A stretch of DNA of 64,000 nucleotides, from the NCBI GenBank assembly GCA_014379595.1, contig JACMLM010000032.1:1-64000 (forward strand). Direction: 5' to 3'. The translations under genes and the position numbers were made by a program. Of this stretch, positions 1-54,374 are shown piece by piece (position 1 is the stretch's first letter; every line of letters starts with the position of its first letter). Source of the DNA: Anaerolineales bacterium (GTDB lineage: Bacteria; Chloroflexota; Anaerolineae; Anaerolineales; Villigracilaceae). The notes below the pieces were generated by a model. The model was not told where the DNA came from. It did no database searches and saw only the letters and a list, made by a program, of their open reading frames with translations.

Positions 1-21
1 GGCTAAGATGAGAAAAGGCGG

Positions 22-44
22 TGTCCTGAGCCGGTCGAAGGGCG
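22..44. repeat. short dispersed repeat fragment
   Basis: The segment GTCCTGAGCCGGTCGAAGGG resembles the widespread intergenic repeat of the type 'cctgagcggagtcgaagg'. A longer relative lies at 56221-56273. The surrounding bases 1-204 contain no supported gene and are otherwise AT-rich. Confidence 0.4.
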
Positions 45-204
45 TCCTCAATTTGAATACGCCCTGTTTTGATTTAATAAAGTGTGAGATTTTTATTCGA
101 TTTTAGTGTTGCAGTTTGCAATTTAGTCTGAATTTGCATGGATTATGTCATCTCATAGCAATCTCAGGGAGGTTCTTAAACATGTTGTTTCTGAGAACGC
201 GGTG

Positions 205-777
205 TTAGGCCGCATGATTTGCATGTGCTCTGCTTGCAAACCAACCAAGTAGGTCTGAAAACGCGGCAGGCAATAAGATTAACATACCGAGAATTGCGCC
301 CACGATTCCGCCAGTGTACGACGCCGCAAAAAGAGCAATATTGTTGCTGTCGCCAGTACTGTTCGACCATGAATAAATTTGACCATAAGAGTCAATGGCT
401 TGAAGGATCAGCGCCTTGCCCGGCCCTGATCGCTCACAAAAAGCCGCTGAGGACACAAACCCAATTGCATTGGGAGGTACACCGCAAGCCTCAAGCGCCA
501 ATTCGGAAGGTTTCGGCAAGTCCGAATCGTAGGTAACCCAGCAACCATAAGGACACTCGTCCCAGAAGGCAAGTGTGTAAATGCGACCTGATTGGGATTG
601 CACAAAATTCGGTGCAACAATCTTCACCGGCATTTCTGGTGCCACCCCCAGCAATTGCCAGTTTCCGAATGTGCCTGGTGAACCCTGGCCAACAAATGCA
701 CTCAACGCTAACGCGCCAAAGATTGCCATCAAGACCATAAAGCAGATTCGTTTTGCTAGTATCAATGATTTTCCCAT
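205..777 (-). CDS. membrane-anchored hypothetical protein (190 aa)
   Basis: I do not recognise this family. The N-terminus has one hydrophobic segment (about residues 10-30). A roughly 110-residue presumably extracytoplasmic part follows, with four cysteines (in ECPYGC, EACG and AFCER) that could form disulfides. A second membrane segment lies at about 150-177, with a short basic tail. The upstream Shine-Dalgarno is weak (GGAAA). It is monocistronic as far as can be seen, with 188 bp to the next gene on the same strand. Function unknown; a two-helix exported-loop protein is all that can be supported. Confidence 0.6.
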   Translation of the reverse strand: MGKSLILAKRICFMVLMAIFGALALSAFVGQGSPGTFGNWQLLGVAPEMPVKIVAPNFVQSQSGRIYTLAFWDECPYGCWVTYDSDLPKPSELALEACGVPPNAIGFVSSAAFCERSGPGKALILQAIDSYGQIYSWSNSTGDSNNIALFAASYTGGIVGAILGMLILLPAAFSDLLGWFASRAHANHAA

Positions 778-807
778 ACTATTTCCAGATAGCGGCTAAC
801 TAGTGTT

Positions 808-893
808 TAGACGGTCAGTTCCAACTAACAGCTTATAGACGGACCGTTCCAACTACGTAGTCCCCGTTAGGGGAAACGCCTAATTCAATTAGG
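808..893. repeat. cluster of short direct and inverted repeats
   Basis: Between two minus-strand genes, two 20-bp near-direct copies of TAGACGGTCAGTTCCAACTA lie at 808-827 and 836-855 (spacing 28 bp). They are followed by a small hairpin TCCCC-GTTA-GGGGA near 861-874 and a 15-bp palindrome CCTAATTCAATTAGG at 879-893. The spacing of the direct copies would fit repeated protein-binding sites upstream of the 205-777 gene, but this is inference. Confidence 0.45.
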
Positions 894-965
894 ACGTTAG
901 ATGGTCAAAGATTAAAACTAGATAAACCAAGTATAGCACTGGCTAAGTTATAACTGCCTTTTTGC

Positions 966-1829
966 TTATGGCGTTCGTAATTCAAAATTATCAAATTCAA
1001 ACACAGCTTGCAGATCAGCCTCGAACAATTCAACGGCCACGGCAGCTGTCCCTGTTGCGATGTGGTCGTCAGTCATCTTGCCTACATATTGATCGTTGAT
1101 GAAGAAAGTGAAATGAGGGCCATCAGCGATGACCGTGAGGCGGTTTGTTTCATTGGGCAAAATGACAGATGATCTGGTGAACTCGATCATATCTGTCCAT
1201 TCGCCATCGTAATTTAGCAAACAAAAGAATCCTTCAGTGTCGATTCCAAAATAATATAAATTGCTATCAGGGTCTTCTCGAAACACCAATCCATAGTCAG
1301 ATTGATCCGACCCGCTCACTTGTTTGAGCTCCACGGTCAAATGAAAATTGCTGACAGATTTTGTGTCCGCGGCTACCCAGGCAATCACTGACTGTTTCGC
1401 ACTCACATCCCAGGTATATTTTCCGTCTGTAATTTTGCGCGTGATATTTGCAAATTCATCATCACTGCTGCCAACGATCCAATCATTTTTATTGGAGTCA
1501 AATGTATCTGAAAGCAAAACAGGCCACAGGTTAAGCGAGTCCGTGGCCAAAGCTTCAATGCCTTGAGCTGTTGCAGTGGAGCCTATTATTTGTTGTGTGG
1601 CGGTTAAATTGGGAGGTAAAGTCTCTGTTGCAAGTACCGGAGTTGATATAGCTGTTGAAGACGGCAGAGATTGGACGATCAGAGGTATTTGATCGGGCCT
1701 AAAGAAGAAGAAGACATCCAGCGCAAGACACATGCAGCCCAGGATGGCTATTCCAACAACTACAAATGTAATTGTTCGTGAGCGGGGCTTTTCTTGATCA
1801 AATGGGTTAACTCCAGTATCTCTGTTCAT
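966..1829 (-). CDS. membrane-anchored protein with LamG/DUF1080-like beta-sandwich domain (287 aa)
   Basis: About 18 cytoplasmic residues precede a single transmembrane helix (residues 20-43). A Ser/Thr/Pro-rich linker follows to about 100. The C-terminal 185 residues resemble the concanavalin-like fold seen in DUF1080 (3-keto-disaccharide hydrolase-like) proteins, with the typical strand pattern YGLVFRED...YYFGID...NRLTVIADGPHFTFFIND. No catalytic motif is evident, so sugar binding or a structural role is as likely as hydrolysis. AGGAG lies 10 nt before the ATG. It is adjacent to the alpha-glucan cluster on the same strand but 80 bp downstream of it, so a link is only possible. Confidence 0.6.
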   Translation of the reverse strand: MNRDTGVNPFDQEKPRSRTITFVVVGIAILGCMCLALDVFFFFRPDQIPLIVQSLPSSTAISTPVLATETLPPNLTATQQIIGSTATAQGIEALATDSLNLWPVLLSDTFDSNKNDWIVGSSDDEFANITRKITDGKYTWDVSAKQSVIAWVAADTKSVSNFHLTVELKQVSGSDQSDYGLVFREDPDSNLYYFGIDTEGFFCLLNYDGEWTDMIEFTRSSVILPNETNRLTVIADGPHFTFFINDQYVGKMTDDHIATGTAAVAVELFEADLQAVFEFDNFELRTP

Positions 1830-1909
1830 AAAAAGTTTACTCCTTGATACCTGCTAACCCATTTTTACCACCTAAATCACGTTTAATAAATGCCAGATAT
1901 GTCTTTTTC

Positions 1910-3379
1910 TTATTTCAGTACAATCCCGCTGCGAGGGGGGATTGTGATTTTGTTTCCTGCAATTACAGGTTTTCCGAACAATATATGCGGCTTTGTGCTG
2001 AGAGACAGCTCAATTGTTTTTTCTTCATTTGAGACATTGAAGGCAACAGTCACATTTTCATTTTTGTATGAACGCGTAAATGCCATCACTTCACCTTCAG
2101 CGTAGATGCGTTTATATTCTCCGCGTCGCAGTGAAGCATGTTCTTTGCGTAAGGCAATACAAGCCTTTGCGTATTCACGCAGGTCTTTGTCCCATTTGCT
2201 TTCATCCCATGGGAAGGCCTTACGGCATTCGGGGTCATGAGCGCCGTCCACCCCGATCTCATCACCATAAAATAAACAGGGCGCACCTGAAATTGTAAAC
2301 ATCAAAAGCCACGCAAGCTTGAGCGCATCTTTGTCCCCATTCACACATGAAAGAAAGCGCGGCATATCGTGACTATCCAACAGATTCAACTGCGAAGCGG
2401 TGATGTCAGGTGGATATAGATTCAAAATGCGGTCAATTTCATTTGCGAAATCATGTGCATTGATATTACGTACACGATCTTTGATACCGCCTGCAGCTGA
2501 GACCACGTTCATATTCAAATGTGAGCCTGCGAAGAAACTCAATGAAGCTGCTGTGAACAGATAATTCATCACCGCATCAAACTGATCGCCTTGCAGCCAT
2601 CTCTGTGCCTCGTGCCATATCTCTCCGACAATATATGCTTCGGGATTGATTGCACGCACGCGTCTGCGAAACTCACGCCAAAATTCATCATCGTCTATTT
2701 CGCCGGGTACATCCAGCCGCCAGCCGTCGATTCCAAGCTTCATCCAATACTCCGCAACACCAAATAAAAATTCACGTACGGCAGGCGTTTTGGTATTGAG
2801 CTTTGGCAGCGCAGGTAAATTCCACCATCCGCGATAACCAATGGCAGATAAACTATCTTCATTCTGCAAAGCCTTTTGTTCTTGCGTTGTAGGATACGCG
2901 CCCCAATGTTTTTTTCCGTTTAATCTTTCCTGATCAAAATAAAACCAATCTTTATAAGGCGATGCATCGCCTGTTTCCAAAACATGATGAAACTGCCAGA
3001 AGCCGCGACTGGCGTGATTGAACACGCCATCCAGCACTACGCGAATATTGCGCTTATGTGCTTCGTCTAATAATTTTTTCAATGCGTCGTTGCCGCCCAG
3101 TAACGGATCAACATTGTAATAATCAAACGTGTGATAACGATGATTGGCAGCCGATGCAAAGACTGGTGTGAAATAAATGGCAGTAATTCCCAGATCCTGC
3201 AAATAATCCAACTTCTCAATCACGCCATACAAGTCACCGCCTTTGAAACCATGATGTGTGGGCGCCGAGTCCCATGCTTCAAACTGCATGGAGCTTGCAG
3301 GGTTTTGGTCACTCTTTGCAAAACGATCTGGAAATATCTGATAAAAAATTGCATCTTGTACCCAATCTGGAGTTGACAT
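1910..3379 (-). CDS. GH13 alpha-glycosidase, neopullulanase/cyclomaltodextrinase-like (489 aa)
   Basis: This is a cytoplasmic glycoside hydrolase family 13 enzyme expected to cleave alpha-1,4 (and possibly alpha-1,6) bonds of imported maltodextrins. The four conserved GH13 regions are visible: DGVFNHAS (region I), GWRLDVPGE with the nucleophile Asp, VGEIW with the acid/base Glu, and LLDSHDMPR. It starts directly at the catalytic barrel (DAIFYQIFPDRF) and lacks the N-terminal CBM34-type domain common in neopullulanases, so it is short for that group. No signal peptide. GAGG precedes the ATG. Last gene of the glucan operon, 14 bp after the exported amylase. The exact substrate cannot be fixed from sequence alone. 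Confidence 0.85.
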   Translation of the reverse strand: MSTPDWVQDAIFYQIFPDRFAKSDQNPASSMQFEAWDSAPTHHGFKGGDLYGVIEKLDYLQDLGITAIYFTPVFASAANHRYHTFDYYNVDPLLGGNDALKKLLDEAHKRNIRVVLDGVFNHASRGFWQFHHVLETGDASPYKDWFYFDQERLNGKKHWGAYPTTQEQKALQNEDSLSAIGYRGWWNLPALPKLNTKTPAVREFLFGVAEYWMKLGIDGWRLDVPGEIDDDEFWREFRRRVRAINPEAYIVGEIWHEAQRWLQGDQFDAVMNYLFTAASLSFFAGSHLNMNVVSAAGGIKDRVRNINAHDFANEIDRILNLYPPDITASQLNLLDSHDMPRFLSCVNGDKDALKLAWLLMFTISGAPCLFYGDEIGVDGAHDPECRKAFPWDESKWDKDLREYAKACIALRKEHASLRRGEYKRIYAEGEVMAFTRSYKNENVTVAFNVSNEEKTIELSLSTKPHILFGKPVIAGNKITIPPRSGIVLK

Positions 3380-3393
3380 TATTTTCCTCGTTA

Positions 3394-4998
3394 TTATTTT
3401 GGATTAAATTCTAAAACATACATTACATGTGGATCAAGATTTTCAAAAGGCTTATATGATGAGAATGCTTCGCCGCTTCCTTCTGGACCGATAGCCTGCT
3501 CTGCCCCAAATAAAGTTTCCACACTATAAGCAGATTCTGCCAAGCCTGCATTTTCAAGATTAAGTGTGTAATCTATTATTGCTTCATCTGTGAGGTTTAC
3601 AAACACAAGCAAAGTTTCTTTTTCATCTATAAGCATAGCAGCATAAACAGCAGAGCTATTTGTGTCCACTAAAACCACATCACCCGTTCTCAAAGCCGAA
3701 CGAGAATTGCGAAGCGCGATCAATGTTCGATAATGCTCAAGCAGTGAATTTGAATCGCCCGATTGTAGCTCAACATTGACCTGCTCGTAGTCATTTCCAG
3801 GCGCGCGCCATGGATCTGTCATGGAGAAGCCTGCATATTCATCTGCACTCCATTGCATGGGCAGTCGAATATCTTCATCTGGTTTTTGTCCTTGCATACC
3901 GATCTCTTCGCCATAATAAATAAAAGGCGTACCGGGCGTTGTCAGCATTAGGAATGAGGCTGTTTTCGCTTTATCTATATCTCCACGAAAAACAGACATA
4001 ACGCGATTTTGATCGTGGTTTGTAAGAAAAGTGGCGAAATTGAAATCAGGCATATCTTGCAGCGCAAATTTGATCGCGCTATTCATTCCTGAACTCGAGC
4101 CTCCGTTCGTGCTGTTGACGAATCCACTGGACAGTTCGAAGTTGAAAATATGATCGAGTTGGTCGCCTGTGTAGGATTTAATTACAGAAGAGCCTGCACC
4201 GAACACTTCTCCGACCGCATATGCCTGCGGATTTTGTGCTTTATAGGATGGATAAAAATCTTTAAACCACGTATGGGTGGCAGGTGTATTTTCTACTTTT
4301 TCACCCTCTTCGATTAAGTGCTTCGCTGCATCTATACGGAATCCGTCTACGCCAATATCATTCAGCCAATAATTTGTTACTTTGAACATATCCGTGGTAA
4401 CTGACGAATTGTTGTAATTGAGATCGGGCATGCCTTCCCAGAAGAGGCCAAAATAATATCCTTGATTTCCCTGATGCCAGCTGCTTCCTTTGCTTTCTTC
4501 AGACCAGACGTAATAATCGTGATAGGGTGAATTTGTATTGTTGTTTGCTTCCTTGAACCACGGATGATTACTGGATGTGTGATTGAGGACGAGGTCAATG
4601 ATGATGCGAATATCACGCTTATGTGCTTCTGCAAGGAGATTCTTGAAATCGCCCATCGTGCCGTATTCATGATTGACGTTGTAATAATTTGTCACGTCAT
4701 ATCCATGATAGGAGGGAGATGGATGGATCGGCATCAACCAAATAGCTGTGATGCCAAGGGATTGCAGATAATCCAGTTTTTGAGTAATCCCGTTAAAGTC
4801 ACCAATGCCGTTATTGTCTGTGTCGTAATAGGAGCGCACAAATATTTCATAGAACACTGCATCGCGCCACCATTGCTGGGGGTCAGACTGTTCAGGCGTA
4901 GATTCTGTTTTTGGTGTGGGAACAGGCTCGGACGTGGCAGGAACGCATGCCGATAGAAAAAACAAAAGTAAGAGTGTAGGGAGAATTTGTTTAAGCAT
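3394..4998 (-). CDS. exported alpha-amylase lipoprotein, GH13 (534 aa)
   Basis: The signal peptide ends in a lipobox (LSAC, Cys about residue 18), so the enzyme should be anchored on the outer face of the membrane. The catalytic domain carries DLVLNHTS, DGFRIDAAKH (nucleophile Asp), VGEVF (acid/base Glu) and FLTNHDQNR. The N-terminal region has a calcium-site-like stretch, DTDNNGIGDFNG. Role inferred: extracellular starch or oligoglucan hydrolysis feeding the ABC importer encoded upstream. The start codon has only a weak Shine-Dalgarno. A 45-bp palindrome (5031-5075) lies between the permease and this gene, so it may be partly uncoupled from the operon. Confidence 0.88.
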   Translation of the reverse strand: MLKQILPTLLLLFFLSACVPATSEPVPTPKTESTPEQSDPQQWWRDAVFYEIFVRSYYDTDNNGIGDFNGITQKLDYLQSLGITAIWLMPIHPSPSYHGYDVTNYYNVNHEYGTMGDFKNLLAEAHKRDIRIIIDLVLNHTSSNHPWFKEANNNTNSPYHDYYVWSEESKGSSWHQGNQGYYFGLFWEGMPDLNYNNSSVTTDMFKVTNYWLNDIGVDGFRIDAAKHLIEEGEKVENTPATHTWFKDFYPSYKAQNPQAYAVGEVFGAGSSVIKSYTGDQLDHIFNFELSSGFVNSTNGGSSSGMNSAIKFALQDMPDFNFATFLTNHDQNRVMSVFRGDIDKAKTASFLMLTTPGTPFIYYGEEIGMQGQKPDEDIRLPMQWSADEYAGFSMTDPWRAPGNDYEQVNVELQSGDSNSLLEHYRTLIALRNSRSALRTGDVVLVDTNSSAVYAAMLIDEKETLLVFVNLTDEAIIDYTLNLENAGLAESAYSVETLFGAEQAIGPEGSGEAFSSYKPFENLDPHVMYVLEFNPK

Positions 4999-5030
4999 GT
5001 GAATAAGTCAGGGCTAAAAAATTTCCCTTC

Positions 5031-5075
5031 TTAATAAAGTGACAGTCACCTTTAAGGTGACTGTCACTTTATTAA
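5031..5075. repeat. perfect intergenic palindrome, family copy 1
   Basis: Two 22-bp arms (5031-5052 and 5054-5075) are perfectly complementary around a single central T. The core is AAGTGACAGTCACCTT. The right arm overlaps the stop codon of the MalG-type permease. Related copies lie at 14922-14957 and 54375-54407. It could act as a transcription terminator or mRNA-stabilising hairpin between permease and amylase, or be a mobile REP-like element. Confidence 0.85.
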
Positions 5076-6094
5076 CCTTTAACGCCGCCTGTAGTGAGAC
5101 CGCCGACTATTTGTTTTTGCAGTGCAATATAAACAAAGGCTACAGGCAGAGCAACGATCACAGCCATTGCCGCAAATCGATTCCACGGAATACTGCTGGC
5201 ATATTGACCTGTCATATTATAGAGAGTCATTGCAAGAGTATAGTCCTTCGGCTGCGAGAGAAAAAGCCAGGATGTTACGAATTCCTGCCAATGGCCAATG
5301 AAGCCGAGGAAGAAGGTAACAGCAAGTTGTGGTGCGGCGAGTGGCAGGATAATCTTCCAGAACGTTTGGTTGGCGTCTGCACCGTCAATAGCGGCGGCTT
5401 CTTCGAGTTCTTTTGGAATGGTATCGAGGTAGCCTTTAAGATTCCAAATTGCGAAGGGTAGGGCACCAGCTGTTATGGCAATACCTACACCAAGCAGCGA
5501 GTCACGCAGGTTGAAGATCAATTTTCCTCTTACGCCTTCATCGCAGGCAAATAAAGGCATGAATGCTGTAATATCTTTTCCACAGTCCACTATTCTAAAA
5601 TTATTTAGCAAGAGGTAAAGCGGCGTAGCTAATCCTATCGCTGGCATGAGTAATGGGATAAAAACCAATACCATCAACACTTCGCGCATTTTGAAATTGA
5701 AACGTGAGAATGCATAGGCAGCGGTTACTGCTATCAGCAAAGCTACAAGGCCAACACCAACCGATAGTGTGATGCTATTGCGTAGAAGTTCAGTAAAGGT
5801 GACCGGGTTGCCAGTTGGGTGATCCAATACTTGTTGGTATGCAACCAGGGAAATTTCTTTTGGAAATAATTCCAACGAAGAGGGGCGTGTAGTCTTTGAA
5901 CTGAACGACAAGGTGACAATATACATGATCGGGAACATAACACTGCACAAAATAAGGATGCATACAATTTGCAGAAGTAACTGCCTCCAAAGTGGCAAGT
6001 TGCGGCCGCTTGTATGTCCTGATGTATTCATGTTGAGGAAACGGACGAGAGGATTACCCTTGCTTGGAGTTGAAGCTGGCACTAATGTTGACAT
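5072..6094 (-). CDS. ABC transporter permease, MalG family (340 aa)
   Basis: Inner-membrane subunit of a carbohydrate importer. The EAA loop that docks the ATPase is visible (ELEEAAAIDGADANQTFW). About six membrane segments follow a cytoplasmic N-terminal extension of some 35 residues. GGAGG lies 7 nt before the ATG, inside the end of the upstream permease gene; the two genes are nearly contiguous, as is normal for translationally coupled malF/malG. Odd feature: an insert of roughly 25-30 residues between membrane segments, containing two cysteines (VDCGKD ... LFACDEG), makes it longer than the usual 270-300 aa. Confidence 0.9.
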   Translation of the reverse strand: MSTLVPASTPSKGNPLVRFLNMNTSGHTSGRNLPLWRQLLLQIVCILILCSVMFPIMYIVTLSFSSKTTRPSSLELFPKEISLVAYQQVLDHPTGNPVTFTELLRNSITLSVGVGLVALLIAVTAAYAFSRFNFKMREVLMVLVFIPLLMPAIGLATPLYLLLNNFRIVDCGKDITAFMPLFACDEGVRGKLIFNLRDSLLGVGIAITAGALPFAIWNLKGYLDTIPKELEEAAAIDGADANQTFWKIILPLAAPQLAVTFFLGFIGHWQEFVTSWLFLSQPKDYTLAMTLYNMTGQYASSIPWNRFAAMAVIVALPVAFVYIALQKQIVGGLTTGGVKG

Positions 6095-11163: not shown

Positions 11164-12147
11164 CTAGACAATTACGAGTTTTCCACTTTGAGCTGATTCG
11201 AGTAAGGCCAGAATGACAGCAATGTTTTCGCGGCTATCAGCTAAGGTGACACGCGGAGATTTGCCGCGTATAACGGAATCATACATATCCTCCACTTCGC
11301 CAAGATACAACTCTTCGCCTTTAATATTGATCTTTTGAGTTTTACCGTCGCGTGTCAGGTAAATTTCATTTTTTACACCAGGCTTAAATGGATTGGGAAT
11401 ATTCAAAGATGCATCTGTTCCAACGATCTCAATATAGGACCGATAGGGTGATTTGAATCCAGAATCAAATTGTGTATGGATACCATCTCTGAATTTCATC
11501 TGCCCAACAAATATTTCATCGCTTCCACTCGGACCTGTGACCTGCCAGCCAAATACTTCAACAGGTTCAGCGCCGACGATGGTTCGCGCGTACGAAATTG
11601 GGTAGCAGCCTACATCCCAAATGCTGCCTCCGCCCATGTCTTTGAAATTGCGAATATCATTTTCATTTTTAATTGTATAAGTGAAGGCGCCTTTTATGAG
11701 TTGGATTTTTCCCAACTTGCCGCTATCTACGATTTCCTTTACCTTTAATGTTTGCACATGATGACGATACATAAAGGCTTCGGCCAAAACTTTACCAGTT
11801 TCATTTGCAGCCTGTGTCATTGCATCTACTTCAGCAAGTGATATCGCAAATGGTTTTTCGCATAGCACGTTCTTGCCTGCGCGTAGAGCCTTGATCGTCC
11901 ATTCTGCATGTAGGTGATTTGGCAAGGAGTTGTAGATCACGTCAATTTCTGAATCATTTAACAAGGCTTCATAGCTTCCATGTGCGCGCGGAATTTTCCA
12001 CTCGCGGGCGTATGTATCAGCGGAGGTCTGGCTCCTCGAAGCAACAGCCAGTAATCGGTTACGTTTTGATGCGTTTAGCGGTTTGATCAAGGCGCGGTTG
12101 ATGTGGGCAGTTGAGAGGAGTCCCCAGTTTAAGATTCGGTCGGTCAT
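11164..12147 (-). CDS. Gfo/Idh/MocA-family dehydrogenase (327 aa)
   Basis: NAD(P)-dependent sugar or inositol-type oxidoreductase: N-terminal Rossmann fold (LNWGLLSTAHINRAL) and the conserved EKPFAIS motif (catalytic Lys of the EKP triad). I chose the ATG at 12147 because AGGAG lies a few bases before it; a longer reading frame to 12237 would overlap the upstream gene and adds residues unlike the family. Last gene of the pentose-type cluster, 25 bp after the SDR gene. The substrate is unknown; xylose or glucose-type aldoses are common for this family. Confidence 0.85.
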   Translation of the reverse strand: MTDRILNWGLLSTAHINRALIKPLNASKRNRLLAVASRSQTSADTYAREWKIPRAHGSYEALLNDSEIDVIYNSLPNHLHAEWTIKALRAGKNVLCEKPFAISLAEVDAMTQAANETGKVLAEAFMYRHHVQTLKVKEIVDSGKLGKIQLIKGAFTYTIKNENDIRNFKDMGGGSIWDVGCYPISYARTIVGAEPVEVFGWQVTGPSGSDEIFVGQMKFRDGIHTQFDSGFKSPYRSYIEIVGTDASLNIPNPFKPGVKNEIYLTRDGKTQKINIKGEELYLGEVEDMYDSVIRGKSPRVTLADSRENIAVILALLESAQSGKLVIV

Positions 12148-12172
12148 ATCTTCTCCTGATGTTATTTTGGAA

Positions 12173-13159
12173 TTAACCGGGATACCAAATATTTCGCGGG
12201 TCATCTTTTGCTCGGGCATAATTCCAAGCTGAATCAATTATTTTCTTCATATCAAATTCAGGCCGCCACCCAAGCAGTAATTTTGCTTTTGTATTATCCA
12301 GCCATGTGGAGTGATACTCTGTCTTGATTTCCACAGATGGAAGCCCGCGGCTTGTTTGTAAATATTGACTCATTTCGCCGTAATCAATCGGTTCATCCAT
12401 ACTGATATTAAATAATTGTTGTTTAGCTTTTGGATGATCTAAGGAAAGAAGTATCGCGCTGACCAGATCTTCTACGTGAACAAAATTGCGTTTCACTGGT
12501 TGATTATTAGTGTCAAGCATGACGGGAATGGTTTGCGTCTTTAGGTATTCATCTGCCTGTTGAGACTTGACCAGATCGCGCCAGCGTGGACCGCCAAAGA
12601 CATCTTCACCGAAAGAAAGTTGATATTTGAAATCATCTTTTTCCATGATCCACGGTGCACGTAGGCAGCAGCCATTGAGATCATATTGAATATAGTATTG
12701 TTCAAGCATTACTTCTTCAAGTACTTTTGAAAGCGCATAACAGCCTGGGTATGCCGAATGTTTTTGTGTTTCTGTCACCGGAATTGGATGTGGGTAAACA
12801 AAATGCCCAATGCCTGCATCACCGCCAATTAAAATAAACTGTTTAAATGAGGAACTGCTGCGACAAGTTTCAAGCAACCAAAACAACCCTTTCACAGCCA
12901 CATCCATGATCTGGTCAGGTGTTTCCTTGACAGTTGCTAAGTGGACGACATGTGTGACTCCATCCATCGCTTTTTCAACATCTGCCCGATGTTCAATGGA
13001 GCCATGAATATTTTGTATTCGTTCATGAGGTTCGGGTTCGCGATTATGGCATAAGGCGCGGACTGTGAACGAGTTGAATTTTGGATCTGCCAATAGCCGT
13101 TTGATAAATACGCTTCCCACCTTGCCAGTTGCACCTGTGACTAAAATGATTTTGGACAT
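12173..13159 (-). CDS. extended SDR / NAD-dependent epimerase-dehydratase (328 aa)
   Basis: The cofactor motif GATGKVG at the N-terminus and a catalytic YALSK (YxxxK) are visible. A C-terminal substrate-binding part brings the size to that of sugar-nucleotide epimerases. It could act on a free sugar or sugar acid (uronate-dehydrogenase-like) in the neighbouring catabolic cluster, but no decisive motif separates these options. The ATG at 13159 follows AAGGAA; the longer frame to 13204 lacks a ribosome site. Confidence 0.82.
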   Translation of the reverse strand: MSKIILVTGATGKVGSVFIKRLLADPKFNSFTVRALCHNREPEPHERIQNIHGSIEHRADVEKAMDGVTHVVHLATVKETPDQIMDVAVKGLFWLLETCRSSSSFKQFILIGGDAGIGHFVYPHPIPVTETQKHSAYPGCYALSKVLEEVMLEQYYIQYDLNGCCLRAPWIMEKDDFKYQLSFGEDVFGGPRWRDLVKSQQADEYLKTQTIPVMLDTNNQPVKRNFVHVEDLVSAILLSLDHPKAKQQLFNISMDEPIDYGEMSQYLQTSRGLPSVEIKTEYHSTWLDNTKAKLLLGWRPEFDMKKIIDSAWNYARAKDDPRNIWYPG

Positions 13160-13215
13160 TTGTATTCCTTGAAAAAATCTGAGGTTAGGATTGTAGCCTG
13201 ACAATTTGAGACTTT

Positions 13216-13247: not shown

Positions 13248-14417
13248 TCAGCATTTCGTCCATTTTCCATTTGCTTTACTTGATTCGATAACTCTATTTA
13301 CAAAGCGCACGCCCATCAATCCGTCCCAAGAATTCGGAAAATAAAGAGCCAATGGATTTGCTTCTTTTCCAGCTCTGCGTGCACTGATGGCCTCTGCTGC
13401 ATCTGAATAAATATTGGCAAAGCCTTCATGGAATCCTTCTGGATGACCAGCGACGATTCGACTCGAGCGTTTGGATAAAGGTAATGTGCCTGGTCCGTTA
13501 GGAGTCCTGTTTTCCGAGGGTCCATGCAGAGGCTTGAATGTCAACGCTTGAGGAAATTCCTGCATCCATTCGAGGCTGCCTTTGGTTCCGCTGACACGAA
13601 TGCGCAGACAGTTTTCCACACCGGCAGCGGCTTGTGTTACCCAAAAATTTCCACGGGCGCCGTTTTCAAATCGAAGCAGAGCACCTGCAAAGTCATGTAC
13701 GAGGCGGCCTGGTACGATATTCCCGATCTCAGCTGAGACTTCATCTAGTTCGAGTCCAGTAATAAAACGGGTGAGGTTATGTGCATGAGTTCCAATATCG
13801 CCCATTACCAAAGAAGGTCCGCCACGAGCCGGATCATATTTCCACGGAAGTTTTTCGGGGACGGGTTTTTCTTCGTCAGCTTTTCCACCTTGAACATATT
13901 CAACTTGAATTAATCGAATCGTTCCCAATTGCCTGTCTTCGACCATTGCCTTTGCCTGACGAACCATTGGGTAGCCTGTGTAATTATGAGTAAGGCAAAA
14001 TATTAAACCAGACTCTTGAACCTTTTTATGTAATGCTTCTGCTTCTTCCAGAGTGTTGGTCATTGGCTTGTCGCAGATCACATCAAAGCCATGTTCAAGT
14101 GCAGCCATGGAGTATTCATAATGGCTATCGTTGGGAGTCATGATAGCGACAACATCAATGCCATCTTCACGAGCAGATTCTTTATCAAGCAATTCTTGAA
14201 CGCTCGAATATAAACGGTCGGGATTCATTCCGAGTTCCTGCGCGGCTTTTTTTGATTTGTCGGGATCAGATGAAAGAATGCCTGTGACGACTTCATAACG
14301 GTCATCGAGTCTGGCGGCTTGGCGGTGCATTGCGCCAATAAATGAGCCGGGTCCGCCGCCAATGACAGCGAGACGAAGTCTGCGCCCAAGTGTTGATATA
14401 ACGGGATTTAATTCCAT
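13248..14417 (-). CDS. Gfo/Idh/MocA-family dehydrogenase (389 aa)
   Basis: Second NAD(P)-dependent oxidoreductase of the cluster. The glycine-rich Rossmann motif is AVIGGGPGSFIGAMH and the catalytic EKP-type motif appears as CDKPMTNT. Its 389 residues and the C-terminal segment with SRIVAGHPEGFHEGFANIY match the myo-inositol or sugar-acid dehydrogenase branch. It abuts the UPF0303 gene (1 bp gap). It is only distantly similar to the enzyme at 11164, so the two are probably different steps of one sugar oxidation pathway (inference). Confidence 0.87.
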   Translation of the reverse strand: MELNPVISTLGRRLRLAVIGGGPGSFIGAMHRQAARLDDRYEVVTGILSSDPDKSKKAAQELGMNPDRLYSSVQELLDKESAREDGIDVVAIMTPNDSHYEYSMAALEHGFDVICDKPMTNTLEEAEALHKKVQESGLIFCLTHNYTGYPMVRQAKAMVEDRQLGTIRLIQVEYVQGGKADEEKPVPEKLPWKYDPARGGPSLVMGDIGTHAHNLTRFITGLELDEVSAEIGNIVPGRLVHDFAGALLRFENGARGNFWVTQAAAGVENCLRIRVSGTKGSLEWMQEFPQALTFKPLHGPSENRTPNGPGTLPLSKRSSRIVAGHPEGFHEGFANIYSDAAEAISARRAGKEANPLALYFPNSWDGLMGVRFVNRVIESSKANGKWTKC

Positions 14418-14418
14418 C

Positions 14419-14886
14419 TCACTTCTCCTGCGTCAAAAAATCTCTGATAGTTTGAACCACTAATTTATGATCTTCTTCTTGAGGAAGTCCAGAAACAGTT
14501 ATGGTGCCGATCATGCCAGTATCTTTAATAATAATGGGAAAACAACCGCCATGAGGAGCATAGATACTTTCTGAGATGGTATAAGATTCTTCAAGACTCT
14601 TGCCTTTGCTTTTTAGAAGCTGTCCCATATAAAATGAACTATGTCCGAACCTATATACAAGGCGGACTTTTCGTTTGACCCATTCATCATTATCAGCAGA
14701 TGTTCCATGTAAGCTGGCATGAAAAAGCTGATGATCACCGCGAGTGATGTCAATGGTTACCGAGAGTTTTTCACGCGTTGCCCGCTCAACCAGCTGATTG
14801 CCGATTTGCCATGCGGTTTCTTCGTTGAAGCTTTTGAATTGAAGTTCCTGTTCTTCCTGGAGTAATTGTTGTAATATGTTGTCCAT
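14419..14886 (-). CDS. UPF0303 / GlcG-HbpS-like protein (155 aa)
   Basis: Small cytoplasmic protein of the UPF0303 family (heme-degrading/GlcG-like fold). Recognisable segments are GNQLVERA, GTSADNDEWVKRK, SIYAPHGGCFPI and GMIGTITVSGLPQEEDH. Members are often encoded beside sugar catabolic dehydrogenases, as here, but the biochemical role is not established. It is coupled to the following dehydrogenase gene. A 36-bp imperfect palindrome lies 36 bp upstream of its start. Confidence 0.82.
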   Translation of the reverse strand: MDNILQQLLQEEQELQFKSFNEETAWQIGNQLVERATREKLSVTIDITRGDHQLFHASLHGTSADNDEWVKRKVRLVYRFGHSSFYMGQLLKSKGKSLEESYTISESIYAPHGGCFPIIIKDTGMIGTITVSGLPQEEDHKLVVQTIRDFLTQEK

Positions 14887-14981: not shown

Positions 14982-16145
14982 TTAAGCGTTCTTATTCTTG
15001 TTGTAAACGTCAAAGAAAACCGCGAGTAGCAGAACAAATCCTTTGATTGCCTGTTGCCAGTCGATGCCTACGCCCAGAATGGACATACCGTTGTTCATCA
15101 CCCCGATGAAGAAAGCGCCGATCACAGCGCCGATAATTGTTCCGATACCGCCGCTGGCTGATGCGCCGCCGATGAAACAAGCGGCAATCACATCCAATTC
15201 AAAACCTTCGCCAGCATTGGGTGTGGCGCTGTTTAAACGAGCAGCAACGATCATGCCAGCCAGTGCAGCGAGAACACCCATGTTTACGAAAGTATAAAAT
15301 AACAAGCGCGGCGTATTAACCCCGGAGAGTCTGGCGGCTTTTTCATTGCCGCCCATTGCGAAAATTCGCCTTCCTATTACCGTTTGATTGGTAATAAAAG
15401 CGTAAATTGTGACGAATGGGAAAAGAATAACCAGTACGTTTGGAATGCCTTTATAAGAAGCCATCAAATAGCAGAAGCCCATCACTGCGGCGGTAATGGC
15501 GATATTTTTAATGACAAAAACATAAGTTGGCGTTACTTCAAAGCCATATTTTTGCTGATTTCTTCTAGTTCGAATATCTAAGATGATCAATAAGACTGAA
15601 ACTAATACTCCAATCAGCATCGTAGTGATATGAAAACCTTCATACTTAAAAAAATCAGGAATAAATCCTGAGCTTAGCTTTTGAAATTCAGGTGGGAAAG
15701 GACCAATTGATTCGCCTCGAACTAAGACCAAGGTCAGACCGCGAAAGATCAACATGCCTGCCAAAGTGACAATGAAAGCTGGTATCTTTACATACGCAAC
15801 CCAATATCCGTGCCAGGCTCCAATTAAGCCGCCAATGACTAGACATATCACAATGGCAACCCCATAATTCACGTCATTTTTTACAATCAATACACCTGCA
15901 ATAGCGCCAACGAAAGCGGCAACAGATCCGACCGAAAGATCGATCCAACCTGAGACAATAATCAACAACATACCGAGTGCCATAATAATGATGTAGCTGT
16001 TTTGTAAAACCAGGTTTGTGATATTGACAGGCTTCATCAATATGCCTTCCGTCCGAACCTGGAAGAAGACCATGATCGTGATGAGCGCAATCAACATACC
16101 GTATTCGCGAATATTATCTTTAAAAAGAGTTGACAGGGTTTTCAT
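14982..16145 (-). CDS. sugar ABC transporter permease, XylH/MmsB type (387 aa)
   Basis: Membrane subunit of a CUT2-type (ribose/xylose family) importer with about ten hydrophobic segments. Motifs include [19 protein letters not shown] and the C-terminal [19 protein letters not shown] hydrophilic insertion with two extra helices in the middle gives the length typical of XylH rather than RbsC. It overlaps the ATPase gene by 4 bp, so the two are translationally coupled. Confidence 0.9.
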
Positions 16146-17689
16146 TGTTCCATTACCTCTACCTCTTGTTGGGTCATAATATATTTCATGATTACTTCCT
16201 GAGATGCCTCGCTTGCCGGCACTTCACCAACGATCTTGCCTTCGCGCATCACGTAAATCCGGTCACAAACACCCAAGAGCTCTGGCAGTTCGGATGAGAT
16301 CAGAATGATCCCTTTGCCTTCACTCGCCAGTTGATTCACAATTGTATAAATCTCATATTTTGCTCCCACGTCAATGCCGCGTGTGGGTTCGTCCAGAATT
16401 AATATTTCGGGATTGGCAAACAACCATTTGCTCAAAACAACTTTTTGCTGGTTGCCGCCAGAAAGATTGACAGCTTTTTGCAAAATGCTGGAACACTTAA
16501 TATTAAGTTTGTCACGATATTCCCGGGTAACGGTCAATTCTTTTGGCTCATTCACCAGGCCGCCGTCTGAAATTGCTTCGAGATTCGCCAAGGTAATATT
16601 ATTTTTAATTTCCTGGATCAGGATCAATCCATATGCTTTACGGTCTTCGGTGGCATACGCAATACCGTTGGAGATGGCTTTCTCGATGGTGCTAATGTCC
16701 ACTTCTTTGCCGTGTTTATAAGCTGTGCCGCTGATGCGTGCACCGTACGCGCGCCCAAAAATACTCATTGCCAGTTCGGTTCTTCCAGACCCCATTAATC
16801 CTGCAATGCCAACTACTTCACCTTTGCGAACAGAGATATTTATATTATTGCTGACTTTTCGATCTTCATGGAGTGGATGATATACGTTCCAATCGCGGAC
16901 CTCAAAAATTGTTTCTCCAATATTCGAATCGCGCGGCGGAAAGCGGTGCGTCAAATCGCGGCCTACCATGCCGCGAATGATTCGATCCTCTGTAATTTTG
17001 TCCTTGTGGCAATCCAAAGTTTCAATTGTGGCACCATCACGCAGGATCGTGATGGAATCTGCAACTTTGGATACTTCACTTAATTTGTGAGAGATCAAAA
17101 TAGAGGCGATGCCATGTGCTTTAAATTGGAGTAGTAACTGTAGTAGTTTCTCGCTATCCGTTTCATTGAGCGAGGCGGTTGGTTCATCCAAAATAAGAAG
17201 CTTGACCTTTTTAGCTAACGCCTTGGCAATTTCAACTAATTGTTGTTTGCCTACACCCATATTAGTGATCAAAGTATTGGGTGATTCATGCAACCCTACT
17301 CTGTCTAATAATTCCTTGGTTTTGGAAATGGATTCATTCCAGTCAATTACGCCATATGAAGAGCGTTCATTACCAAGGAACAAATTCTCGGCGATGGAAA
17401 GATAAGGAATAAGAGCGAGCTCCTGATGGATAATAACGAGCCCAACTTCTTCCGATTGATTAATATTGTGAAAGCGGCATTCTTTGCCTAGAAAATAAAT
17501 GTCTCCGCTGTATGAACCATATGGATACACACCGCTCAAGACCTTCATCAAGGTGGATTTCCCCGCTCCATTCTCTCCTACTAAAGCATGTATCTCTCCC
17601 TCTTTGACAGCAAAGCTTACATTATCAAGTGCTTTAACACCAGGAAATGTCTTTGTAATGTTTCGCATTTCCAAAATGACATCAGACAT
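16142..17689 (-). CDS. sugar ABC transporter ATPase, XylG/MmsA type (515 aa)
   Basis: Two fused ABC domains, as in all CUT2 ATPases. The first has a canonical Walker A (GENGAGKST) and Walker [13 protein letters not shown]. The second has the usual degenerate P-loop (GLMGSGRTE) with signature [15 protein letters not shown] and Walker [13 protein letters not shown]. It lies between the duplicated binding-protein gene and the permease in the standard xylFGH order. Confidence 0.92.
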
Positions 17690-17856: not shown

Positions 17857-19956
17857 TTACTTCAGATCATCAGGATTGATATAACCACTATCAATTAAGA
17901 GTTTCTCGTAATTGGTCAGGTCAACACTGTATGGGGTCAACAAGTAGGAAGGAACGACTTTGACGCCATTATCATAGGTCGTGGTGTCATTGATATCAAC
18001 TGTCTCACCCTTCAAAGCCTGGTCCACCATCTTGGCAACCTGGGCAGCAAGTTCACGGGTGTCTTTGAACACAGTAAACATCTGTTCGCCGGCAATCATA
18101 GCTTTGACGGAGGCAACTTCTGCATCCTGACCGGTGATAACAGGCCAGGGCTGGTCAGCTGTGCCGTAGCCCACGCCTCTTAGTGAGGAGATGATGCCGC
18201 GGCTGAGACCATCATAAGGTGAAAGGACTGCGTCCACACGCTTGTCGGTGTAATTAGCACTCAACAAGTTATCCATGCGAGCCTGGGCAACTGTACCATC
18301 CCAACGCAATGTGCCAACTACATCCATACCCATTTGACCGGATTGAACTACTAATTTTCCGCTGTCGATATAAGGTTGCAGAACAGACATGGCGCCGTCA
18401 TAGAAGTAAAAGGCGTTGGTATCGTCTGGAGAACCACCGAACAGTTCAACGTTGAATGGACCTTCGGCATTTTCGAGGTCAAGCCCTTCAATGATCTGAG
18501 TACCTTGGATGACGCCAACACCAAAGTTGTCGAAGGTGGCGTAGTAATCCACATTCTCAGTCTTGGAGATCAAGCGGTCATAGGCAACTACAAGAACGCC
18601 TTCGTCACGTGCACGTTGAAGCACATCAGAGAGGGTGGAGCCATCGATGGCTGCGATGATGAGAACATCAGCACCTTTAGTAACCATGTTTTCGATCTGG
18701 GCAAGCTGATTGGGGATGTCATTGTCTGCAAATTGCAGATCAGTTTCATAACCAAGCGCTTCGAAGGAAGCAACCATGCTCTCGCCGTCAGAAATCCAAC
18801 GGGTGGATGTCTTGGTGGGCATAGAGATGCCTACCAGTTTAGCTTCACCAGAAGGAGCTTCGCCCTCAGGTGCAGCGGGTAGATCTTCGGCCTTGATATA
18901 ACCGCTATCAATTAAGAGTTCTTGGTAATTGGAAAGGTCAACGCTGTGAGGAGTCAAGAGATAAGAAGGAACAACTTTGACACCATTATCGTAGGTCTTG
19001 GTATCGTTGATATCAACTGTCTCGCCCTTCAAAGCCTGGTCCACCATCTTGGCGGTTTGCGCGGCAAGCTCACGAGTATCTTTGAACACTGTGTAAGTCT
19101 GTTCACCAGCTATCATTGCAATAACAGAAGCAACTTCCGCATCCTGACCGGTGATGACAGGCCAGGGCTGGTCGGCAGTGCCGTAACCAACGCCTCTTAG
19201 TGAGGAGATGATGCCGCGGCTGAGACCATCGTAAGGAGACAAAACTGCATCAACGCGTTTGTCGGTGTAATTGGCACTCAGCAAATTATCCATGCGAGCT
19301 TGGGCAACAGTGCCATCCCAGCGCAAGGTGCCGACCACGTCCATACCCATTTGACCGGATTGAACTACTAATTTTCCGCTGTCGATGTAAGGTTGCAGAA
19401 CAGACATCGCGCCATCATAGAAATAGAAAGCGTTCGTGTCGTCTGGAGAACCACCGAACAGTTCAATGTTGAAGGGGCCTTCTGCATTTTCGAGGTCAAG
19501 CCCTTCAATGATTTGAGTACCTTGAATGACGCCAACGCCGAAATTATCGAAGGTGGCGTAGTAATCCACATTCGCAGTCTTGGAGATGAGGCGGTCATAA
19601 GCAATCACGAGCACGCCGGCATCATGTGCCTTCTGCAAAACATCAGAGAGGGTGGAGCCGTCAATGGCTGCGATCACGAGAACATCAGCACCCTTGGTGA
19701 TCATGTTTTCGATCTGAGCAAGCTGATTGGGGATGTCGTTATCAGCAAACTGCAGATCAGTTTGATAGCCCAGATCTTCAAAGGACTTAACCATACTCTC
19801 GCCGTCAGAAATCCAACGGGTGGATGTCTTGGTAGGCATGGAGATTCCTACTGTTTTGGCATCTGAATCAGGTGCAGCTCCGCCACCGCATGCAGAAAGT
19901 ATAAGACTAGCCAGTATCAGAACAGCTAGAAGATTGTAAAGCAATTTCTTAGACAT
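17857..19956 (-). CDS. XylF/ChvE-type sugar-binding lipoprotein with two tandem ligand domains (699 aa)
   Basis: Receptor lipoprotein of the XylGH-type importer. The signal peptide ends in SAC (Cys 23). It then carries two complete periplasmic-binding domains, residues about 34-360 and 373-699, joined by the linker [13 protein letters not shown]. The copies are offset by exactly 339 codons. Both begin [20 protein letters not shown] and end close to LLIDSGYI. Long stretches are identical in protein (for example around [19 protein letters not shown]) while the DNA differs at scattered, mostly synonymous sites, so this is an old in-frame duplication rather than a copying artefact. Normal family length is about 340-370 aa. 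AGGAG precedes the ATG. Confidence 0.92.
17860..19857 (-). repeat. in-gene tandem duplication with 1017-bp period
   Basis: Unit A spans 18841-19857 (with linker) and unit B 17860-18840. For example, CATTTGACCGGATTGAACTA occurs at 18331 and again at 19348. The two units differ at scattered positions, mostly third codon bases. Confidence 0.93.
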
Positions 19957-20175: not shown

Positions 20176-21219
20176 TTAAACAATTTTTGAACTTTCACGA
20201 ACAATCAGGGTTGGTTGTATAAACCTTGATTGCGCGATGATGGATTTGTTTCCCTGTCCAGCCTGGATCATCTCCACGACATTTTGAACAGCTTGTTCGC
20301 CAAGCAATTGGAGGTCTTGAGAAACTGTTGTTAATGAGGGATAAAAAAAAGCCGACTCAGGAATATTGTCGAAGCCCACCACTGTCAATTCTTCAGGAAC
20401 CCTGATTCCTCGTCGATGTGCTTCACGCAAAACGCTTAGCGCCATCTGATCGTTGCCAACAAAAATTGCATCCATATCTGGAAACGAATCAAGAAGTTGA
20501 ATAAAAGCCTGCTCTCCGCTGGAAGATGACCAATTGCCTTCAGCACAGTGTTGTTCTGAAGTATCAAAGTCTGCTGCATTTAGGGTTTCGCACCAGCCGC
20601 GCTTGCGCTCATTCGCTTCCCACCAGCCAAGCGGGCCTGAAATATGACCGATCTTTTTTCGGCCGCAATCCAACAGGTGTTGTATCGCCATCACAGCACC
20701 TTGATAGTTATCTGTTGCAATGCTCGGGATATTATGACGTGGCCGCATCGCGAGGAACAACACTGGTACAGAAATTCTATCCATGCGCTCATCGACCCAG
20801 GTGTGATTATTACCAATCTCCGGCGCCACCCATATGATCCCATCTACCTGGCGGGCAAGGAGTGAATCTATTACATCTCCAATCCTGTTTGTATCGAAAT
20901 TATCAAGTTCTTTTATCAATAACATGTAACCTAATTCATCTGCTTTATCGGCTATACCATTAAGAGTACGTGATGGTCCTATGTATTTCAGACCAAAGGT
21001 GACAACTCCCAAAGTATAGCTGCGCTGTTGAATTAAACTACGTGCCAGAGTACTTGGGTGATAACCTAATTGTTCCACTACTTTTTCCACACGCTGACGA
21101 GTTTCATCTGAAACGTAGGAAAACTTATTCATTACACGCGAAACCGTCTGTGTAGAAACTCCCGCTGTCTGCGCTACATCTTTGATGGTGATACGCTTTC
21201 TTCTTTCAGTAGGGAACAA
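20176..21219 (-). CDS. LacI-family transcriptional regulator (347 aa)
   Basis: N-terminal LacI helix-turn-helix ITIKDVAQTAGVSTQTVSRV (residues about 10-29) with hinge PSTLARSL, then a periplasmic-binding-like effector domain (GVVTFGL ... FVGNDQMALSVL ... VVGFDNIPESAFF). The start is TTG at 21217-21219, with AAGGA 7 nt upstream; the next in-frame ATG would delete the DNA-binding helix. Tandem palindromic operators lie 22 bp upstream, so autoregulation and control of the adjacent pentose-type transport operon are likely. Confidence 0.9.
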   Translation of the reverse strand: MFPTERRKRITIKDVAQTAGVSTQTVSRVMNKFSYVSDETRQRVEKVVEQLGYHPSTLARSLIQQRSYTLGVVTFGLKYIGPSRTLNGIADKADELGYMLLIKELDNFDTNRIGDVIDSLLARQVDGIIWVAPEIGNNHTWVDERMDRISVPVLFLAMRPRHNIPSIATDNYQGAVMAIQHLLDCGRKKIGHISGPLGWWEANERKRGWCETLNAADFDTSEQHCAEGNWSSSSGEQAFIQLLDSFPDMDAIFVGNDQMALSVLREAHRRGIRVPEELTVVGFDNIPESAFFYPSLTTVSQDLQLLGEQAVQNVVEMIQAGQGNKSIIAQSRFIQPTLIVRESSKIV

Positions 21220-21240: not shown

Positions 21241-21274
21241 GTTATCGATAACATGTTATCGATAACATGTTATC
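21241..21274. promoter_or_regulatory. tandem LacI-type operators
   Basis: The 12-bp palindrome GTTATCGATAAC occurs at 21241-21252 and 21255-21266, followed by a half site GTTATC at 21269-21274, all with a 14-bp period. The central CG and symmetrical form are typical of LacI-family operators. It lies just upstream of the regulator's own start codon. Confidence 0.85.
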
Positions 21275-54352: not shown

Positions 54353-54374
54353 ACCCAACTCCATAAGAGCCCAT

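Follow-up and report, generated by a model that had tools for sequence, protein, structure and literature searches.

We examined a 64,000-nt stretch of DNA from an Anaerolineales bacterium (Chloroflexota; contig JACMLM010000032.1 of assembly GCA_014379595.1, positions 1–64,000), hereafter the window. On its minus strand, an ATG-started open reading frame (ORF) at 17857..19956 (stop codon included) encodes a 699-aa lipoprotein that the ChvE model, NF040907, matches twice. A LacI-family regulator gene (20176..21219; PF00356 and PF13377) lies upstream in the same orientation. Downstream, and also on the minus strand, come in order a GguA-type double ATPase (16142..17689; NF040905, 879.7 bits, cut-off 810), a GguB-type permease (14982..16145; NF040906, 581.8 bits, cut-off 450), an HbpS-like protein (14419..14886; PF03928, with NF002696 above its cut-off), a Gfo/Idh/MocA oxidoreductase with a probable role in sugar catabolism (13248..14417; PF01408 and PF22725), an NAD-dependent epimerase/dehydratase (12173..13204; PF01370) and a second Gfo/Idh/MocA oxidoreductase (11164..12237; PF01408). 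The adjacent GguA and GguB genes expected of a ChvE-family receptor are therefore present.

The receptor begins with a signal peptide (19888..19956, minus strand) whose lipobox, L20-S21-A22-C23, was recognized by eye and provides a single lipid anchor at Cys23; the leaders of single-domain orthologues are similar. It is followed on the same strand by a membrane-proximal ChvE domain (residues 34–360; 18877..19857), a 12-residue linker (residues 361–372; 18841..18876) and a membrane-distal ChvE domain (residues 373–699; 17860..18840). The linker contains no lipobox and the reading frame is kept through it. The duplication spans the mature domain but leaves out the lipidated Cys, so a single chain, held by one lipid anchor, bears both receptors. 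An earlier note on this DNA had described a sugar-binding lipoprotein with two ligand domains and a 1017-bp in-frame repeat, and its coordinates, frame and unit length proved exact: we recovered the same ORF, and an unprompted repeat search of the window returned a direct repeat with a spacing of 1017 nt (17864–18163 versus 18881–19180, 83%). The lipobox and the two ChvE domains likewise support its description of the protein.

The whole protein scored 1067.7 bits against NF040907 over the two matches, and the halves scored 543.1 and 536.7 bits separately, each above the cut-off of 460; with 302 of 327 paired residues identical, the doubling is real and far beyond chance. The XylF model, TIGR02634, gave 396.7 bits (cut-off 389.55) solely as the sum of both domains, each of which would contribute about half, and we rejected XylF membership for the halves. 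The label 'XylF/ChvE-type' in the earlier note thus narrows to ChvE. Each of 80 named ChvE loci encodes one substrate-binding domain per chain and this ORF has two, so the receptor is a two-domain variant made from ChvE domains. Elsewhere in the source genome, the domain has a single match, at 25% identity. Both halves align over their full length with the solved ChvE structure 3urm, which was also the closest PDB match of an AlphaFold2 model of the tandem (TM 0.97 by target length). That model, built from a 22-sequence alignment, contains a complete set of helices and strands in each half (mean pLDDT 81.5), with pLDDT below 50 at linker residues 362–370 and a pTM of 0.55, the mutual placement of the two domains being without confident prediction. 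The alignment covered mainly the N half, since its conserved columns lie at residues 37–353.

Directly upstream of the LacI gene, a tandem-repeat search found a double palindrome, GTTATCGATAAC, in two copies 14 nt apart (21241..21266, no strand assigned). Allowing at most one mismatch, the motif occurs twice in the window against 0.10 occurrences expected, and the pair is a probable operator. The exact motif was present in 24 of 26 ChvE loci of relatives (L004–L029) and in 41 of 172 loci searched, many of which overlap or come from the same genome; among those 172, L015, L025, L033, L036 and L039 were some of the loci that lacked it. In all ten ChvE loci L120–L129, no more than ~125 nt separate it from the 5' end of a LacI-like frame. 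The order LacI–substrate-binding protein–ATPase–permease also surrounds single-domain orthologues (for example L122, L123, L125, L128 and L129), which are up to 91% identical and sit in the same operon. The shared gene order and palindrome thus place the tandem in the operon orthologous to that of its single-domain relatives, under regulation that is probably similar.

Elsewhere in the window we noted a TIR-domain protein (PF13676; 22993–23628, plus strand), between genes that we take to be enolase and CTP synthase, and a 126-nt tandem repeat of 2.3 copies (51844–52131) inside a 937-aa ORF (51551–54364, minus strand).

Divergence and constraint in the two halves

The earlier note had attributed the combination of a near-identical protein with diverged DNA to strong purifying selection or gene conversion. 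Between residues 34–360 and 373–699, protein divergence is ~7%, and 837 of 981 nucleotides are identical, with 111 of the 144 differences at third positions and no identical run longer than 47 nt. Of 327 codon pairs, 206 are identical and 121 differ, 96 silently and 25 with replacement; one replacing pair, P360/K699, compares linker with C-terminus and has no true homology, which leaves 24 aligned differences and 120 differing codons. The synonymous divergence (dS) between halves was 0.73, lower than the 1.25–1.99 separating them from ten other rows, although values above 1 are near saturation and only their rank order is safe. The dN/dS between halves was 0.067, within the orthologue-like range of 0.03–0.11 obtained for the window against other rows, which supports purifying selection.

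Phylogenies placed the two halves as sisters, with support of 100/99 in a DNA tree and 95/75 in a protein tree. The protein tree held 46 rows (matches of >300 bits from L004–L030 and L033–L046, plus joined rows), and the DNA tree the same rows minus 11 (L030, L033–L038 and L041–L044); in the latter, the window halves fall inside a clade with single-domain proteins of three relatives (G125, G010 and G027). Using these as outgroups, we polarized the 120 differing codons as N-like, C-like or neither and obtained 39, 42 and 39 with G125, 43, 45 and 32 with G027, and 52, 37 and 31 with G010. The symmetry of divergence between the halves thus varies with the outgroup, being unequal with G010. Gene conversion found no such support: identity runs, of which the longest spans 15 codons, show no clear excess in length over permutations of the data (p 0.09). 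The pattern is explained by a single ancient duplication, after which both halves evolved under ordinary purifying selection, and conversion is not needed.

We then compared the halves with 107 single-domain ChvE rows (102 distinct, including one joined row, G009a), most of them from 80 named ChvE loci in the genome collection, none of which had two ChvE domains in one ORF. Among these rows, 115 columns show a constancy of 98% or more, and both halves match the consensus at 114 of them; 23 of the 24 aligned differences fall in columns that vary among the 107. This retention argues that the two domains have the same specificity, a comparison that relied on column conservation in place of the ChvE sugar-contact residues. 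The earlier note had also raised two ligand specificities, and the tandem domains of GlnPQ are reported to differ in ligand (PMC8025302). With protein divergence of ~7% and all but one of the constant columns kept in both halves, however, such a division of ligands finds no support here, and we consider it highly improbable.

Tandem receptors in relatives and in other bacteria

How unusual is a doubled receptor? In a set of 201 genomes (the source and 200 relatives), a search with the N half gave matches in 92 at E 1e-3, and at least 23 carried a tandem receptor of ChvE or a related family. This count is a lower bound, as tandems were chosen by open-frame length among the matches listed and most, rather than all, long frames were fetched; L168, a stray 1-kb stretch, was left out. 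In 16 of the 23 genomes, a single ORF contains both domains in full; in the other seven (G002, G031, G107, G123, G125, G142 and G166), one domain is complete or nearly so and the other is cut by a contig end. A further candidate among the matches listed, in G055, resembles a tandem and stands outside the 23. By family, two are ChvE (the window and G002), three are XylF doubles, one (G166) belongs to another related family, and the rest fall in a ChvE-like clade ~40% identical to ChvE, which we call clade B. In G002 (locus L118), contig C306 starts within one ChvE domain, after which a linker of 15 residues leads to another, interrupted by a frame break in that assembly; the dS between these halves is 0.31, and they are sisters in the DNA tree (93/94) and unjoined in the protein tree.

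These relatives bear on whether the window gene is real. As the earlier note had pointed out, alleles of two strains joined by misassembly could mimic a tandem, as could joined paralogues, and the source genome is an assembly of 72 contigs (95% completeness). Identical runs between the halves, however, do not exceed 47 nt, the junction is in frame through a linker without a lipobox, and two strain alleles would hardly be expected to reach a dS of 0.73, beyond usual strain variation, while remaining each other's closest kin. A ChvE tandem of separate origin lies on one contig of G002, a congener, and 15 further relatives' genomes have both domains complete on one ORF. We therefore regard a chimera as very unlikely.

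ChvE tandems themselves are rare, with two genomes found here. In an order-level search, 20 of 301 genomes had a match at E 1e-100; 19 of these had single-domain proteins, leaving the source genome as the only one with a tandem. A draw of 400 genomes from the phylum gave matches at E 1e-40 in 126, with at least four tandems (G000, G145, G439 and G539) among the matches listed. With the same model at E 1e-50, none of 53 matches in Pseudomonadota and none of 51 in Bacillota (35 of 249 genomes with a match in each) were two in one frame; in these two sets and the phylum draw, 5–8 candidates were scored per genome. Relative to Pseudomonadota and Bacillota combined (0 of 70), tandems were enriched in the relatives set, where at least 21 of the 57 genomes with a match at E 1e-40 had one (p 4e-9; at least 22 of 57 with G055 added, p 1e-9). 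Phylum-wide enrichment, tested in the same way, was not shown (at least 4 of 126 versus 0 of 70, p 0.30). Both tests are only indicative, because queries and thresholds differ, few candidates per genome were scored in the sets just named, and the 57 and 21 were counted by hand from the matches listed. The earlier note's description of the double receptor as unusual holds among ChvE orthologues, and the architecture recurs among relatives.

The three XylF doubles, of a kind that the earlier note had proposed looking for, are at L115:5323–7491 and L142:13280–15502, where TIGR02634 matches twice, and at L117:5275–7443, assigned by similarity. Their halves are 88–100% identical. For clade B, we built a tree of 61 rows, leaving out ChvE loci, L132, L155, L167, L169, L170 and half-domains of at most 240 positions, and representing L131 by its N-terminal domain. 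Locus L132 itself (1–5847, minus strand; G009) holds a 1949-aa frame that combines ChvE-like and YtfQ-like domains with immunoglobulin/fibronectin-like matches. In the tree, the N and C domains of L154, L133, L130 and L117 are each other's sisters; together with the window and G002, this gives six apparent separate births of tandems, unless repeated conversion mimics them. In three groups (L136–L139, L113/L149/L150 and L148/L152), N domains cluster across species and C domains do likewise, suggesting that those tandems are older than the species and have been retained.

Such a record could also arise if unequal recombination between low-complexity linkers often makes tandems that are neither useful nor harmful and soon disappear. 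Across 21 tandems, the dS between halves ranges from 0 to 0.87, as expected from steady births, the linkers look like those that follow the lipobox in single-domain proteins, and the rarity of ChvE tandems would fit as well. Assembly error is hardest to exclude for the near-identical pairs in G040, G031 and G439. Against transience, the window halves are still open and constrained at a dS of 0.73, and the groups with distinct N and C domains across species indicate that tandems persist. We judge neutral turnover of this kind to be quite unlikely.

Clade B also includes 11 heterotandem genes (721–840 aa), in which one ChvE-like domain is joined to a different second part. Seven of the second parts were identified: GlcS-like in L140, L134, L114 and L146 (below the GlcS model cut-off), SBP_bac_6 in L143 and L145, and Bmp (Bmp/PnrA) in L147; Pfam gave no identification for those of L116, L141, L142 and L144. 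A BPD_transp_1 permease gene lies near the heterotandems of L140, L144, L143, L141 and L134, and a CUT2-type ATPase and permease lie near that of L134 and, by similarity to the window's, those of L140, L141 and L144. Fourteen clade-B loci (11 homotandem, three heterotandem) encode fusions of an N-terminal ABC ATPase with a C-terminal histidine kinase (536–561 aa), such as L136:2756–4366, L151:3682–5361 and L140:272–1882. Three fusions compared with NCBIfam have a MctS/LiaS/UhpB-like kinase part. A response-regulator gene lies near the fusion ORFs, that of L136 being NarL-type with an extra receiver domain. Judged from domain content, the fusion is possibly a transporter-coupled two-component sensor. 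The window contains neither heterotandems nor such fusions, and we rejected a link between its tandem and a fusion, as no frame in the source genome covers both parts.

Taken together, these loci raise the possibility, which we hold tentatively and rate below even odds, that Anaerolineales repeatedly concatenate sugar receptors adaptively. Homotandems (doubled ChvE, XylF or clade-B domains) would raise receptor density per anchor, heterotandems with GlcS-like, SBP_bac_6 or Bmp parts would physically link receptors belonging to different types of importer, and clade B would be wired through the ATPase/histidine-kinase fusion and response regulator so as to report sugar to a two-component system.

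Roles of the two domains

The one constant column at which the halves part is residue 279 (window 19120–19122): the N half carries Ile there, whereas Lys stands in the C half and in all 107 single-domain rows. The codons at this column, ATT in the N half and AAA, are two nucleotides apart. This residue is the sole lead for an altered role of the membrane-proximal domain, in which one function may be lost or altered. In that case the domain carrying Ile279 might be losing docking or binding and be left chiefly with the task of a spacer or regulator, holding the distal receptor clear of the membrane. The older clade-B tandems, in which domains of different species group according to their N or C position, make lasting separate roles conceivable. 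However, the other 114 constant columns are intact in both halves, constraint on the two halves is similar, and at residue 279 the doubles of clade B and XylF carry Gln and Asn, indicating that Lys is unnecessary for the fold. We consider such a division of labour doubtful.

The reading we prefer, with a probability of roughly 0.6, is that the gene is a real in-frame duplication of a ChvE-type monosaccharide receptor in an otherwise ordinary GguAB operon, and that the duplication yields equivalent receptors, giving more binding sites per anchor and no new specificity. The evidence in hand consists of two intact domains of the same family, one lipobox, one adjoining importer, purifying selection and recurrence in relatives. 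We hypothesize that the N-terminal receptor would sit beside the membrane and the C-terminal receptor farther out on the short flexible linker. The domains would share their sugar ligand or ligands, each would close on its ligand independently, and the two would alternate in docking on the single importer, GguB; the last two steps are proposed by analogy with GlnPQ. The gain would lie in receptor density, or number per anchor, at the pump, and in reach. However, single-domain orthologues do well, in 19 of the 20 genomes of the order-level search and at 80 of 80 named loci, a counterpoint to any benefit of the tandem.

The question touched here is how the number of receptor sites and the length of the tether affect an ABC importer, and the work we found on it concerns permease-fused GlnPQ and OpuA. 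A freestanding, near-identical double receptor decouples receptor number from both specificity and fusion to the pump. The single-domain orthologues, at most 91% identical and in the same operon, are natural controls, and the recurrence of tandems of all ages in one order offers a comparative series on receptor concatenation.

Comparison with known systems

In OpuA-type importers, every subunit carries one receptor fused to its permease rather than two on a chain. As in the window, two receptor domains lie near one importer (PMC11065425). GlnPQ-type importers likewise have two receptor domains in tandem that serve one importer, on a short linker of 14 residues against 12 in the window, but their tandem forms part of the permease chain and its domains differ in ligand, whereas the window chain is a separate lipoprotein with domains 93% identical (PMC8025302). 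The GlnPQ domains are reported to retain their structures and affinities on this linker, to bind independently without cooperativity and to compete for docking, with longer linkers slowing transport (PMC8025302). By analogy, the window tandem may work like that of GlnPQ, yet it is not a member of that system, since its chain has no permease domain and the permease is encoded by the separate gene at 14982–16145.

Each half of the window protein is a full domain of the ChvE family (NF040907, multiple monosaccharide ABC transporter substrate-binding protein; structures 3urm and 3uug), beside GguA and GguB as in that family. The 80 named ChvE loci are single-domain, whereas the window has two domains in one lipoprotein on one anchor. 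XylF (TIGR02634) belongs to the same superfamily and is itself doubled in relatives (L115, L142 and L117), but the window halves pass its cut-off only when summed. In a literature search that left most subscription papers beyond reach, every tandem receptor encountered was part of a permease and no freestanding double sugar receptor came up, a silence that is weak evidence of novelty. The ChvE family and permease-fused tandem receptors are thus known; what appears new is the freestanding double version, recurring in one lineage.
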